A DNA stretch of 64,000 bases, from assembly GCF_013368755.1 (NCBI RefSeq), contig NC_049565.1:2604001-2668000 (forward strand), in the 5' to 3' direction. The stretch is from Talaromyces rugulosus (lineage: Eukaryota > Ascomycota > Eurotiomycetes > Eurotiales > Trichocomaceae). Position numbers and translations under genes: made by a program. Below are positions 13,632 to 19,948 of the stretch, piece by piece. A model generated the notes under the pieces. That model did no database searches and was not told the DNA's origin. It worked only from the letters and a program-made list of their open reading frames with translations. Positions within the stretch are counted from its first letter, which is position 1, and each line of letters begins with the position of its first letter.

Positions 13632-14576
13632 TCAAACAACCAATCTCATCTTCAGTTTGTCTCCCTCTACAATCTCATTCTTCCTCGATTCCAATTCCGG
13701 CATATGCCAACTGGCGCTCACATACCGTCCACCCAGCCAGGGACGTCCCTTTTGCGTCAGCCACGCAAACGTGTCAGCCGCCAGCTCGGGGGTGTCATTC
13801 AAAAAATCGTGCATCCATTCAGGCAGTCCCAGTGCCAGGTCCGTACGAACAGCACCGGGATTAACCGCAACTACTGTCAGCCCCTCAGCCCCGTATTCCA
13901 CTGCCAAAAACTCGGTGAATCTCAAAATCGCGAATTTCGACCCTTGATAACCCGAGGCTCCCGGTACCGTCAACAGAGCACCAGCGGACGACACGTTGAG
14001 AACCCACTTGAGATCTGACTTGAGCAGAGCAGGCAAAAACTCGCGAGTAAGCAGGTACACTCCCTTGAGATTTGCCTCCCAGACAGACCACCATGCTATT
14101 GGGTCGCCCTTGTCAACTTTGACCCAATTTTCTAGGGCTCCGGCGTTGTTAATAAGAACATCAAGACGGCCATCAAACGCCTCTAGCGTTTTTCTAGCTG
14201 CCTCCTTTACCGCGTTTGTATCGGTAACGTCCAGACTAAGCTTTAGGATGGTAAGCGTTTGTGTAGACACAGCACGCATGCTTTTTTCGACCTCGTCTAG
14301 CGATGAGCGTGCAGCGATGGCGATGTGGGAGGCGCCGGCGCGAGCGTAGGAAATTGCTGTTGCACGTCCGATGCCTTTAGAAGCTCCGCTGATGAAAACG
14401 GCTCGGCCTATGTGGCTGTCATTGTTGGAAGATATGGCTGGGTATGTGTCGTTGTGACTTTCTTCGGTGAAGCTCCTTGCTACAGAGAAGGCGTCTTACT
14501 TTTTGTAAGCACAAAGGGCTTTTTTACGCGAGGAGTCGGATTGCTTACCTGAAGCAGCCTTCGACGTGAAATCCAT
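13632..14576 (-). CDS. Short-chain dehydrogenase/reductase
   Basis: Two exons (14549-14576, only nine codons, and 13632-14479; 69-bp intron), 291 residues. The Rossmann fold shows the nucleotide-binding GASKGIG (about residues 35-41), the structural NNAG (LINNAGAL), the catalytic Ser (VLNVSSAGAL) and the YQGSK motif with catalytic Tyr and Lys. NPGAVRTDL follows, typical of classical SDRs. The substrate cannot be told from sequence. NADP preference is plausible because the residues after strand 2 include Arg (AIAARSS). The tiny first exon is supported by phase and by GTAAGC/TGTAG splice sites, but a start within exon 2 is an alternative. The next gene upstream on the same strand is the reverse-transcriptase-like gene, 580 bases away. 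Confidence 0.85.
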
Positions 14577-15159: not shown

Positions 15160-18054
15160 CTATCCCTGCCACCGCACCTTTCCCTGGCGCAGTACCTTGA
15201 CAACCCCAAGCGGCATCAGCGCGCGATCAACAGCCGACAGACTACCGTACTTCTTGACCATACCGCTATGGTAAAGCACCGTCACCCATCGCCAGTACGC
15301 GTTCATAGAGTTCCAATCATGCGCAATGCGGTCCCCGTGCTTGCTTGACCGATCCAGCATCATCTGGTGTCGACTCAGCTCCGTCGTCGGGCCGATCTCC
15401 TGCTCCTCGGGAACTCGGAGCAACTCGCGGTATGCCCAATATAGCTCCGAGCTGGTAGACTCGAGGTGCGCAGTGTATTCTTCGAGAGAAAAGAATGACT
15501 TGGGTCCGTCCAAGAACCGCAAAGTACTAGAGTAGCCATCCCCCTTTTGCCATTTCCGCTTGGCGATTTCGTAGTTGGCTTCCTCTGAAATGAACACTTT
15601 CTCTATAATGCGTCGGGGTGTTTTGCGAACGTCTTCCCGCATCGCGAGGAACCCGATGAAGGGGTTATGGATCTCGAGACCGCCGAGTTCGATGGGGAAG
15701 AAGAAGAATCCGTCGGGGAGATTGTCCACGTCGAAGCGCTCCGCAATGACTTTGCGTAGATAATACGCAACGTTGCCGTTTTCCAAGCCACTCGCGGCGA
15801 AGACTTCGCGTTCAATTCGGCTCAACGTGCTGATCACCATGTCGATGTGTTCTCGTCCGATAGCCACAGAAGGCTTGGCGAAGAAGTTGCTAAAGAACCT
15901 CGCAAAGTAGCTGTTCCACGCCTGGATCCAGGCGAATATGCTCTTGCAAGCGGACAGTTGGCGTTTGAGCTCTTCGATATGGATATCCACTTGGTCCTGG
16001 TCAATGAGGAACCGACGCTGCTCAGGGTCCAGCTTGAGGAATCCCCACCGAATGTCGCCTTGTGGTAAAGCAAAAGCATTGGCATCATCCGACGACATTT
16101 CCGAGTCAGAACCCAGTTCGGAACTCGAATGATCGGCAGTAGGGGTTTCCGAAACCTCTTTCTTCTCCCCCAGACGAACGGTCCCGGTTTTCTCCTCATT
16201 TAACTGAAGACCGGTAACTTTTGTAAATTCACTCATTGCCTTCCATGCCTCTTGGCAGGACTTTTCCTTTCCCCAAAACCAGAAATCATCATGCAGCCGG
16301 TAGAGGAACGAGCCATTCGCATGTTGGTTAACGGCATAGTCCATGCAGAAAAGGAGTGACTCTCCGAGGAACTCTGAGATCGAATGACTCATGGGCACAC
16401 CACGCTGTCGGATGTGGACTTGTGCCTCGGAGCCGTCGTGGACAAATTTGAGAGGGCACTCTAGGAACCTTTTGAAAAACTGCAACCAGTCGTCTTGAAC
16501 ACCGAAAAAGTGCAAAACGGCTAGGATCGTGCCGTGTGGGAGAGAAGGCCCAAACCATTTGAAATCAGATCGAACCACTGTGAACTCGCCATGAAGTCGG
16601 TTGTGAATGATGGATTCGGTGATTAAAAGATGCAGCAATGACTGTTTGGTCTCGATCGGTGACATTCGGTCATCATCCCCTGGTAGGACTGCATCATCGT
16701 CGCCGTGGTCATCATAGCTTCTCTTGCCTTCGTCGAGAGACCGAGGAAGTTGGGTCATGAAGTAGTCGGTCTCGTATGTCTCCTTTCGGAAGTTGTCGAC
16801 TGTCTCTCTCTCTCGGGGTTCTTGTGTAATGAAATGCTTCCGTCGATTGGTGACCTCCTTGGGGACTTTTTGCGAATTGGATTTCCACGCAGGAGACTTC
16901 AAGAAGGAAACAAATGCGTCGCGGAATTCCACGGACCATTTCAGGCCAATGTAATGGAGAAGAATAGTTTCGATGAGGTCTCCATCCATAAAGACGCGGT
17001 ATTTCCCATTCAGATGGCGGCGCATCTCGACGGGGATGCCTTTCGAATCCCAGTCCCAACGATCGATAGAAGCAAACCGTAGGTTCAAGACGTCTGCTAC
17101 TTCCTGAGCAACTTCGTTGTTTTTGAGGAACTCTTTCAGAATTGAGGTCTTTTCAGGAGTCAAGAGATCGCTTCTAAGCAGTGACGAGCTTATGGTCTTG
17201 AGCATGGTAATGTCAAATGCCTTTGTGTTTGACCGCAAGCTAGTGCCAAAGTCTCGGACCTTCTCGCGAAGCTCCTTGAGCGCCTGTTGCGAGAGCTTTG
17301 TCTGATTGAAGAGCTTATCCAAGTATGCCACCACTGCTTGCGAGTCTACGTCGGCTGGCGAGAAAACGAGGCTTTCCCATGTGGCTCGCTGGTCATGCAT
17401 TTCCTGTCGTCCAACTTGTTCAAAGGTTGACTTGTCGAGGCTCTTCTCGCCAGGCTTTTCCTCAAGATCCACAAGCCATTCAGAAACCAAGTCACTGTAG
17501 AACTTGGCATGCTCATACTTGACAGTGTGATAGCGCAGGCTGTCCTCAAGACGAGCAATCCATTCCCGCACAACCTCATCCGAAACAGAAGCATCATGCC
17601 TACTCTGCAGCAGAAAACGGCGCATGTTAATATTCTCACTCCGCAGCCAATCTGTATTCGAGTAAACTGATTGTGTCGACGGAAGACGGTTGCTCCGTTG
17701 CTGCCCAGTGACGACATCCTTGTCGATATCGTCATCCTCGTCAAAGGCATCCTTGGGGTATCCCATCAACCGCGTGACACCCTCGAGTAGCACGCGGGCT
17801 TTCTCTCTGTGGTCTGGGGCGGCATTGGCTGCCTTGAGGATCTCAGCCTTGCGGCTTTCGAACAGCTCGCGTTGCTTGTAAAGCTCGTCGACTTTGGTAG
17901 AGCTGATGGATTTGAGGGTCAGTGGGAGAGCACCACGAGTGGAAGCCATTGTTCCTGAATGGAGAAAAGAGCGATGAAATGAGGTTGATGTGTTGAGCAG
18001 GCGAGTACGAGCGTGAGAGCACAAGCATCGACCACGCAGGAGAGATTGATGCAT
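15160..18054 (-). CDS. rvt: Reverse-transcriptase-related cellular gene (rvt family)
   Basis: One exon, 964 codons. The RT core is readable. Motif A is VVRSDFKWFGPSLPHGTI (Asp497). Motif B is RGVPMSHSISEFLGESLLF (551-569). Motif C is YRLHDDFWFWG (Asp589, Asp590), where the usual Y/F-x-D-D is Leu-His-Asp-Asp. Motif D is GLQLNEEKTG (Lys622). The thumb-like part includes LPDGFFFFPIELGGLEIHNP (779-798). All three catalytic Asp are present. There is no endonuclease, RNase H, integrase, gag or zinc knuckle. The N-terminal 300 residues are helical and charged. Acidic insertions sit before motif A (about 440-465) and after motif D (about 630-665). This layout fits the domesticated rvt genes of fungi and other organisms, whose function is unknown. 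A second in-frame ATG at 17949 (MASTRGALPLTLK) may be the true start. The 35 residues before it resemble a mitochondrial presequence. Confidence 0.85.
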   Translation of the reverse strand: MHQSLLRGRCLCSHARTRLLNTSTSFHRSFLHSGTMASTRGALPLTLKSISSTKVDELYKQRELFESRKAEILKAANAAPDHREKARVLLEGVTRLMGYPKDAFDEDDDIDKDVVTGQQRSNRLPSTQSVYSNTDWLRSENINMRRFLLQSRHDASVSDEVVREWIARLEDSLRYHTVKYEHAKFYSDLVSEWLVDLEEKPGEKSLDKSTFEQVGRQEMHDQRATWESLVFSPADVDSQAVVAYLDKLFNQTKLSQQALKELREKVRDFGTSLRSNTKAFDITMLKTISSSLLRSDLLTPEKTSILKEFLKNNEVAQEVADVLNLRFASIDRWDWDSKGIPVEMRRHLNGKYRVFMDGDLIETILLHYIGLKWSVEFRDAFVSFLKSPAWKSNSQKVPKEVTNRRKHFITQEPRERETVDNFRKETYETDYFMTQLPRSLDEGKRSYDDHGDDDAVLPGDDDRMSPIETKQSLLHLLITESIIHNRLHGEFTVVRSDFKWFGPSLPHGTILAVLHFFGVQDDWLQFFKRFLECPLKFVHDGSEAQVHIRQRGVPMSHSISEFLGESLLFCMDYAVNQHANGSFLYRLHDDFWFWGKEKSCQEAWKAMSEFTKVTGLQLNEEKTGTVRLGEKKEVSETPTADHSSSELGSDSEMSSDDANAFALPQGDIRWGFLKLDPEQRRFLIDQDQVDIHIEELKRQLSACKSIFAWIQAWNSYFARFFSNFFAKPSVAIGREHIDMVISTLSRIEREVFAASGLENGNVAYYLRKVIAERFDVDNLPDGFFFFPIELGGLEIHNPFIGFLAMREDVRKTPRRIIEKVFISEEANYEIAKRKWQKGDGYSSTLRFLDGPKSFFSLEEYTAHLESTSSELYWAYRELLRVPEEQEIGPTTELSRHQMMLDRSSKHGDRIAHDWNSMNAYWRWVTVLYHSGMVKKYGSLSAVDRALMPLGVVKVLRQGKVRWQG

Positions 18055-18513: not shown

Positions 18514-19948
18514 CTAATCACATCTCTCCCACGAATGCAACCCATCCTCTCCCCTTGGCACAAGCGTATCAAACAAACCCCTAGTCTCCACAACACGCTT
18601 ATACTCCACTTCTGGCTCAAACGGACATCCATATATCTCTTCGTACAAAGTTTGAAGAAAAAGATACGTATATGGCTCCATTAGTCCCATCTCAAACTGC
18701 CGCCGGGACTCTGCGGTGTTCATTAGGTCCTTTCGGAGGTTTCGGCAGCGTAAACTAGAAGACTGGAATCGGCACTCGCGAGCCAAAAAGGTTTCGAGGA
18801 AGCGGGCTCGGTCAGTGACTAGGCCGCTGACTTTGTCGCCGAATAGCCATGGGTACAGGCAGAGTGAGGGCAAGGGGACGACCGTGCCGGGGAAGTCGAG
18901 AATACCGGTGATGTTGAAGTCGTCATCAACCTGGACCTGTCAGCCTGGGACCAACAGCCACTTGGATACTAACTTACCAGGATATTCTGAACAGTGAGAT
19001 CGTTATGATTAATCACAAAAGGCCCATCCTTAAACTCTGGAACTATAAAATGACCAGCCAGCTCCGCGAAAAGCTCGTAACTAGCCACTTCTTTGCTCCT
19101 GTCTCCTACTTCGGGATTCCCCACGGCGTACTTGAGATTGAGCTCAGCCATTGCATTGTACCAGTCTGTGGTGGACGAAAAGGGGCCCTTGTGCTGAGCA
19201 TCAAGTTGGCTGTACGCCACAGCCTTGTGCTGTGGATACGCGGTTGCATTAGTCTCTGTATATGGCCCGATGAAAAAGTTTCCGTTTGAGTCTTCGAGCA
19301 AGGAGCCGATTTTGTCGAATTTCAGAGATGCTAGCAACATATGAGTCAGCTCGACGTTACACATACACACACATCGAATGAATATACCTAATTCCAAAAT
19401 AATATCCGTCAACTGAGTATGCACCTTTTTTACCACTGCAATCTCTTTATCGCTGGCCTTGAGCGTCTTCCCCTTCAGCGTCGGCAGCGGATGCCCGGAA
19501 AGATATTCCATTAGAATATACGCCGCCTTAACCTTGTTGTCTGGAGCTGACTTGGCCGCATATGCATACACTTCTGGAACAGGAATGTTACTATGCTTCT
19601 TGAGATATTTAAGCGTCGCAGCATACGAATCCGAGATTTCGTCGGGTTGGAAGCAACTGTCTGGATTCGGGATGCGAGCGAGCCAGCTGATACCATCGGA
19701 GAATAATAACTGGAGCACGACGTTGTATCCTGCAAAAGTTTATATTAGTATTGAATGTTACATGTATGTTCGTCCATATGACATGCGAGGGTAAGCTTGC
19801 CTCCCATGATATGGCTCGCCAAGGAGCATGGTATGTTATCGCGATGGCTAGATGCGACTACGCACAGCTCCTTCAAGTCGATGGTCTTGAGGAACTGTAC
19901 AAGCGCGAACTGCTCGTCCTCGCTTGAGTATCTGTTAGATTCGCTCAT
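18514..19948 (-). CDS. APH-family phosphotransferase (aminoglycoside phosphotransferase/kinase-like)
   Basis: Four exons: 19801-19948, 19388-19729, 18978-19330 and 18514-18930, giving 419 residues. The N-lobe has GGYNVVLQLLFSDGISWLAR (Gly-rich turn) and YILMEYLSGHPL (hinge). The catalytic loop is VINHNDLTVQNIL (HxDxxxxN) and is followed by a metal-binding Asp in ITGILDFPG. This fold phosphorylates small molecules; the substrate in fungi is usually unknown, and resistance to aminoglycosides should not be assumed. Intron 1 appears to use a GC donor (GGAG/GCAAGC), because the only joining that restores the conserved Gly-Gly-Tyr motif starts there. The C-terminal third is specific to the fungal members. 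Likely cytosolic. Confidence 0.85.

Follow-up and report, generated by a model that had tools for sequence, protein, structure and literature searches.

A 64,000-nucleotide stretch of the Talaromyces rugulosus genome (positions 2,604,001 to 2,668,000 of NC_049565.1; hereafter the window) carries an intact gene for a protein with a reverse transcriptase (RT) core. We consider it fairly likely that this gene encodes a domesticated and immobile polymerase of the RVT kind, handed down mainly by vertical descent, whose product would work as an oligomer in untemplated nucleotide addition started on a tyrosine and would be induced by translation stress. RVT is said to be the name under which Gladyshev and Arkhipova described reverse transcriptase-related cellular genes in 2011. 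The original prediction, made from the letters of the window, had placed the gene in this class, and the RT core, the insert within it, the profile kinship with prokaryotic proteins and the immobility of the gene all support that placement. What we observe is an RT core intact at all its catalytic positions, a large insert that separates motif 2 from motif A, predicted N-terminal helices, near-invariant C-terminal tyrosines and a strong match to the profile RT_UG37.

The gene occupies window 15160-18054 on the minus strand (stop codon included), the strand of all its features given below, as an uninterrupted frame of 964 codons with zero internal stops. Residue numbers follow this frame; those of a 929-amino-acid (aa) form, discussed below, are obtained by subtracting 35. 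The frame and its RT motifs are as first predicted, with all three catalytic aspartates in place. Motif A (VVRSDFKWFG, 16549-16578) contains Asp497, motif B (RGVPMSH, residues 551-557, 16384-16404) opens with RGVP at 551-554, motif C (RLHDDFW, residues 586-592, 16279-16299) includes LHDD with Asp589 and Asp590, and motif D (GLQLNEEKTG, residues 615-624, 16183-16212) includes Lys622. The RT fingers and palm together span 16030-17037 (residues ~340-675), as delimited by the Pfam RVT_1 match (467-627), the RT_UG37 match (149-640) and the strands of the structural model (305-641 in the 929-aa form). A fingers hairpin with Lys351 and Arg353 (16996-17004) lies beside and in the model strand 317-321 (numbered in the 929-aa form).

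AlphaFold2 predicts the right-hand fold of an RT, in which a large insert separates motif 2 from motif A. In the model of the 929-aa form, measured in the window protein only, the fingers hairpin ends at 321 and the motif A strand begins at 455; the interval holds extra helices as well as a stretch modelled at low confidence. This 'loop 2a' region (16660-16899) is thus partly of low confidence, and its length varies among relatives. Ahead of the core lies a predicted N-terminal helical region (residues 36-335, 17050-17949), with a long helix at residues 10-42 of the 929-aa form. The highest fold Z score lies with the R2 and LINE-1 RTs (25.2 for R2); unlike these, the window protein has no endonuclease, exists as one DNA copy and shows no sequence match to them. 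A telomerase structure, 6usr, appears in the structure listing at 6.4e-6 and is not among the best 50 fold matches, from which we infer nothing.

Conservation was read from 263 aligned proteins, which fall in one clean split into 138 with the motif A aspartate (the catalytic branch) and 125 without it. The family is represented in Aspergillus nidulans by AN0661 (P0094). Lys351 and Arg353 are found in all 138 catalytic members, and both positions are basic in none of the other 125. In motif C, the position of the LHDD leucine holds Leu in 135 of the 138 and Met in three; LHDD is therefore a mark of the family and not of the window gene, and the Leu that had been singled out as notable proves to be the family norm. 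Two C-terminal tyrosines, Tyr920 and Tyr928 (15271-15297), are conserved in both branches and are candidate protein-priming residues. Tyr920 is present in 137 of 138 catalytic and 124 of 125 other proteins (one gap in each), and Tyr928 in 136 of 138 and 119 of 125. Considering the columns that the window protein occupies and ignoring gaps, only at Tyr920 is a tyrosine left unreplaced throughout both branches.

Kinship and immobility

A search against RVT_1, proposed with the prediction as a check, gave a match at 2.6e-5 that falls below the gathering score, and a prokaryotic profile, RT_UG37 of PADLOC (an unknown-group RT), is far stronger at an E value of 2e-65. Throughout the T. rugulosus genome (35.8 Mb in six contigs, with the window on contig C5), RT_UG37 yielded rows at the window gene and at one related gene only, from four candidates. 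The window protein retrieved 279 proteins at E ≤ 1e-3. With a query of about 460 residues, the species-named rows among the best 120 of 883 matches were all fungal, and full-length proteins were still present. No Neurospora protein stands among the best 120 of 279, the best 120 of 356 or the best 120 of 883 matches in three protein searches.

Set beside RVT as described, the window protein agrees in being encoded by an immobile gene with an intact RT core and no mobile-element domains. It also has a predicted insert of the loop 2a type, separating motif 2 from motif 3 (A), prokaryotic relatives as judged by the RT_UG37 profile only, and conserved C-terminal tyrosines, which RVT proteins reportedly share. 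Both the large insert at this place and relatives in bacteria are ascribed to RVT in PMC5718144.

That the gene is what remains of a retrotransposon, or that one inserted here recently, as the RT domain might suggest, is highly improbable. The frame is intact, and a DNA search with the 3.7-kb stretch that holds the gene found only the self-match in the genome. Pfam agrees with the prediction that endonuclease, RNase H, integrase and gag are absent from the window protein, where besides RVT_1 it reported just two weak unrelated rows (0.11 and 0.24). Flanking repeats had been called absent, and between 13500 and 20000 we indeed detected no direct or inverted repeat of at least 16 bases, the only length class tested. 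Indices of the repeat-induced point mutation type (0.47 and 1.24) are no higher than those of the neighbours, and the family tree broadly follows species order with one clear exception. A genome scan with RVT_1 returned 150 scored matches from 216 candidates, many with identical scores. Many of the decayed matches in that scan are rich in TAG stops, a pattern that repeat-induced point mutation might produce.

A profile built from the 138 catalytic members was run with all filters off on open reading frames (ORFs) of at least 150 aa. It matches the related gene on C5 and none of the other 12 ORFs, which include three RTs classed by Pfam: one LINE-type (endonuclease, RT, RNase H), one LTR-type (RT, RNase H, integrase, chromodomain) and one telomerase (602 aa, RT and TERT_C). 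Dispersed DNA copies of the gene and placement with LINE or telomerase proteins had been named as findings that would overturn the prediction. No such copies were found, telomerase is a separate gene on contig C1 with an RNA-binding domain and TERT_C, and the family profile matches neither the one LINE-type nor the one telomerase ORF. In the window protein itself, Pfam detected no telomerase RNA-binding domain at E ≤ 1.

Might the protein instead copy a dedicated cellular RNA, like telomerase, DRT2, DRT9 and DRT10? The window protein has a full RT active site, its nearest solved relative by sequence is DRT9, and a published tree clusters most UG RTs with TERT (PMC12632851, in the part available). 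Telomerase itself is accounted for by its own gene, though, and the accessible text of a meeting report calls RVT polymerisation non-templated (PMC10680173). DRT9 and the Abi-type protein-primed RTs are among the nearest comparable systems; DRT9 differs, judging by chain lengths and titles, in having about 500 residues and working with a non-coding RNA. We regard a templated RT as unlikely. The RT-like domain of the spliceosomal protein Prp8 has no sequence match to the window protein and a different architecture.

A slightly less probable alternative still is that the gene serves in defence against mycoviruses or transposons, as the eukaryotic equivalent of RTs that protect bacteria from phages, and that stress tolerance is incidental. 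RT_UG37, the best profile match, is filed among the defence-associated RTs, and the genome holds many transposon RTs, some of them decayed. Against this, the PADLOC label for UG37 was given by kinship, and Pfam scans of 14 other window ORFs revealed no effector-like partner beside the gene.

A second branch without the motif A aspartate

The gene had been described as single-copy, which holds for its DNA, while a related gene lies 1 Mb away on the same contig (C5:1620949-1623834, minus strand). This gene is intact and encodes 962 aa; its product is identical to TRUGW13939_09108 of T. rugulosus and shares 41% identity with the window protein over residues 445-963 and 33% over 34-441. RT_UG37 matches it at 2.4e-50 (best stretch 15-792), and a separate match to its C-terminal motif covers profile positions 731-768 of 778 (E 7.3e-5; residues 913-950 after conversion); the same genome scan gave no such separate C-terminal row for the window gene. 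The related gene lacks both the motif A aspartate and the fingers Lys/Arg pair; that the T. rugulosus genome holds such a gene as well is a difference from RVT as described.

The second branch as a whole (125 proteins) lacks the fingers pair and retains Tyr920. On this pattern of residues it is likely a conserved pseudo-polymerase. We considered whether a change from Asp to Glu in motif A might mark a still-active variant and judged this unlikely: neither 351 nor 353 is basic in any of the 14 proteins that carry Glu. No description of such a branch was found in the open-licence literature on RVT genes, and the main RVT papers outside that literature may well note it.

Presence was judged from the named rows among the best 120 of 279 matches for the window gene and the best 120 of 356 for the related gene. 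Both genes are among the matches listed for T. rugulosus, T. islandicus, Aspergillus hancockii and Penicilliopsis zonata. For the catalytic gene, the best 120 of 279 include many Penicillium species along with T. amestolkiae, T. atroroseus, T. marneffei and T. stipitatus. For the second gene, the named rows among the best 120 of 356 contain no Penicillium, and Talaromyces is represented by T. rugulosus and T. islandicus only. On these lists, which are suggestive only, the second gene looks patchy in its distribution. This patchiness speaks against an obligatory partnership, and we did not adopt an obligate heteromer of both genes.

The family tree was built without Neurospora or bacterial RVT. 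Its catalytic branch broadly tracks species: Onygenales stand apart from Eurotiales, Penicillium and Aspergillus form groups, and the node holding Talaromyces is weak (0.313). The one clear exception is a yeast sequence, P0118 from Trichomonascus (now Blastobotrys) vanleenenianus of the Saccharomycotina, which lies inside Aspergillaceae as sister to Penicilliopsis zonata (0.997), a placement that reflects horizontal transfer or contamination. The T. rugulosus copy of the second gene groups with unnamed, Dothideomycete and Lecanoromycete sequences and one from Pyrenula (a Eurotiomycete) in a 70-tip clade (support 1.0), apart from the Aspergillus copies; horizontal transfer or differential loss could account for this.

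We tentatively raise the possibility that filamentous fungi keep two RVT kinds: a polymerase, represented by the window gene, and a conserved pseudo-polymerase that would have given up metal and nucleotide binding while its fold and C-terminal tyrosine were kept. This second protein might join mixed oligomers, where it would lend its tyrosine as a primer in trans or restrain the polymerase, and its gene may have passed on its own from one fungal lineage to another. The data permit no bolder reading than such a role in regulation or priming, and contact between the two proteins is hypothetical.

Gene start and surroundings

The frame of 964 codons is real, and the protein made from it is probably shorter than the prediction had it. 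The true start is probably codon 36 (window 17949, MASTRGALPL...), since most relatives begin near there; the likely coding sequence would then be 15160-17949 and the protein 929 aa. The four closest relatives (82-95% identical) begin at the Met of codon 36. Only eight of the 138 catalytic members, the window frame included, have at least 15 residues ahead of codon 42, and these sequences are unlike one another. The in-frame extension of 35 codons 5' of the likely start (17950-18054; ATG context GCCACCATG) is rich in Arg and Ser with zero acidic residues, and could be a mitochondrial presequence or mere leader RNA. Mitochondrial targeting was rejected as a family feature, few of the 138 carrying an N-terminal extension, and is still possible for T. 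rugulosus itself.

Four further members of the 138 are fused gene models. In these (P0027, P0061, P0104 and P0092), RVT forms the end of a protein with cytochrome P450 (PF00067) in three Aspergillus species and with PF00962 in Penicillium olsonii; both kinds are probably fused models of adjoining genes. Among the window ORFs of at least 150 aa that were scanned, those closest to the gene with a family assignment encode a short-chain dehydrogenase (13632-14279) and, on the other side, an APH-family kinase (18969-19718), with Urb2, a purine permease, a cullin and a carbohydrate phosphorylase farther off. Codon usage was set aside as proof of an ordinary gene: its correlation with four neighbours is 0.87, yet a shifted frame still reaches 0.80.

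Proposed function and significance

The unreplaced Tyr920, taken with published reports on RVT and on protein priming, leads us to propose, as the probable activity of the window protein, that it adds nucleotides without a template and with a protein primer when translation is under stress. Within Eurotiomycetes the gene would have been retained largely through vertical descent, and the protein may form an oligomer and add nucleotides in short runs without a template. Its own C-terminal Tyr920 (Tyr885 in the 929-aa form) could serve as the starting point, as could free RNA ends. The gene would be switched on when translation is impaired, as by amino-acid starvation or ribosome-targeting compounds, and would ease that stress. 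The Neurospora RVT is said to prefer nucleoside triphosphates with Mn2+, and the Herpetosiphon RVT reportedly forms oligomers through an N-terminal coiled coil.

According to the part of the meeting report available, rvt genes help bacteria, fungi and rotifers under amino-acid starvation or certain antibiotics, act template-free, need their catalytic residues and are often transferred horizontally (PMC10680173). Untemplated polymerisation and induction by translation stress are reported for other RVT members in portions of PMC3520738 and PMC10680173, and protein priming, mostly on tyrosine, for several related bacterial RTs in portions of PMC12632851 and PMC13275509.

Several points weigh against the RVT assignment and the proposed activity. 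An invariant tyrosine can be structural, and priming on C-terminal tyrosines is reported only as a possibility for a bacterial (Herpetosiphon) RVT. RVT proteins reportedly have an N-terminal coiled coil; in a simple heptad test of the long helix at 10-42 of the 929-aa form, 183 of 500 shuffles scored as well, and of the five segments tested the helix at 218-240 alone stood out (2 of 500). RT_UG37 is not fully specific: it also matches three of 14 well-known control genomes, the same three as RVT_1, and its match is therefore partly a general RT signal. The equation of UG37 with the bacterial rvt group is our own inference; the portion of the myRT paper at hand (PMC8934634) does not mention UG37, and the excerpts of the literature consulted contain no statement of that equation. 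Using tblastn, we recovered no bacterial relative from two scans of genome contigs (58 and 116 pattern-matched stretches) or one of viral contigs (36 stretches), and none from plasmids and phages at E ≤ 0.01; a Herpetosiphon plasmid, searched alone, gave no match. Because no bacterial sequence was recovered, the link to bacteria rests on profiles.

To our knowledge, few RT kin other than telomerase have been tamed in eukaryotic cells; RVT genes belong to that small group, and their role is still open. The window gene provides a clean and intact example with its residues defined. The sister branch, which lacks the active site and is nonetheless intact in four fungal classes, amounts to a natural experiment: the retention of a dead branch suggests that part of the protein's role needs no polymerisation, and the second-branch protein is a candidate partner of the polymerase in mixed complexes.
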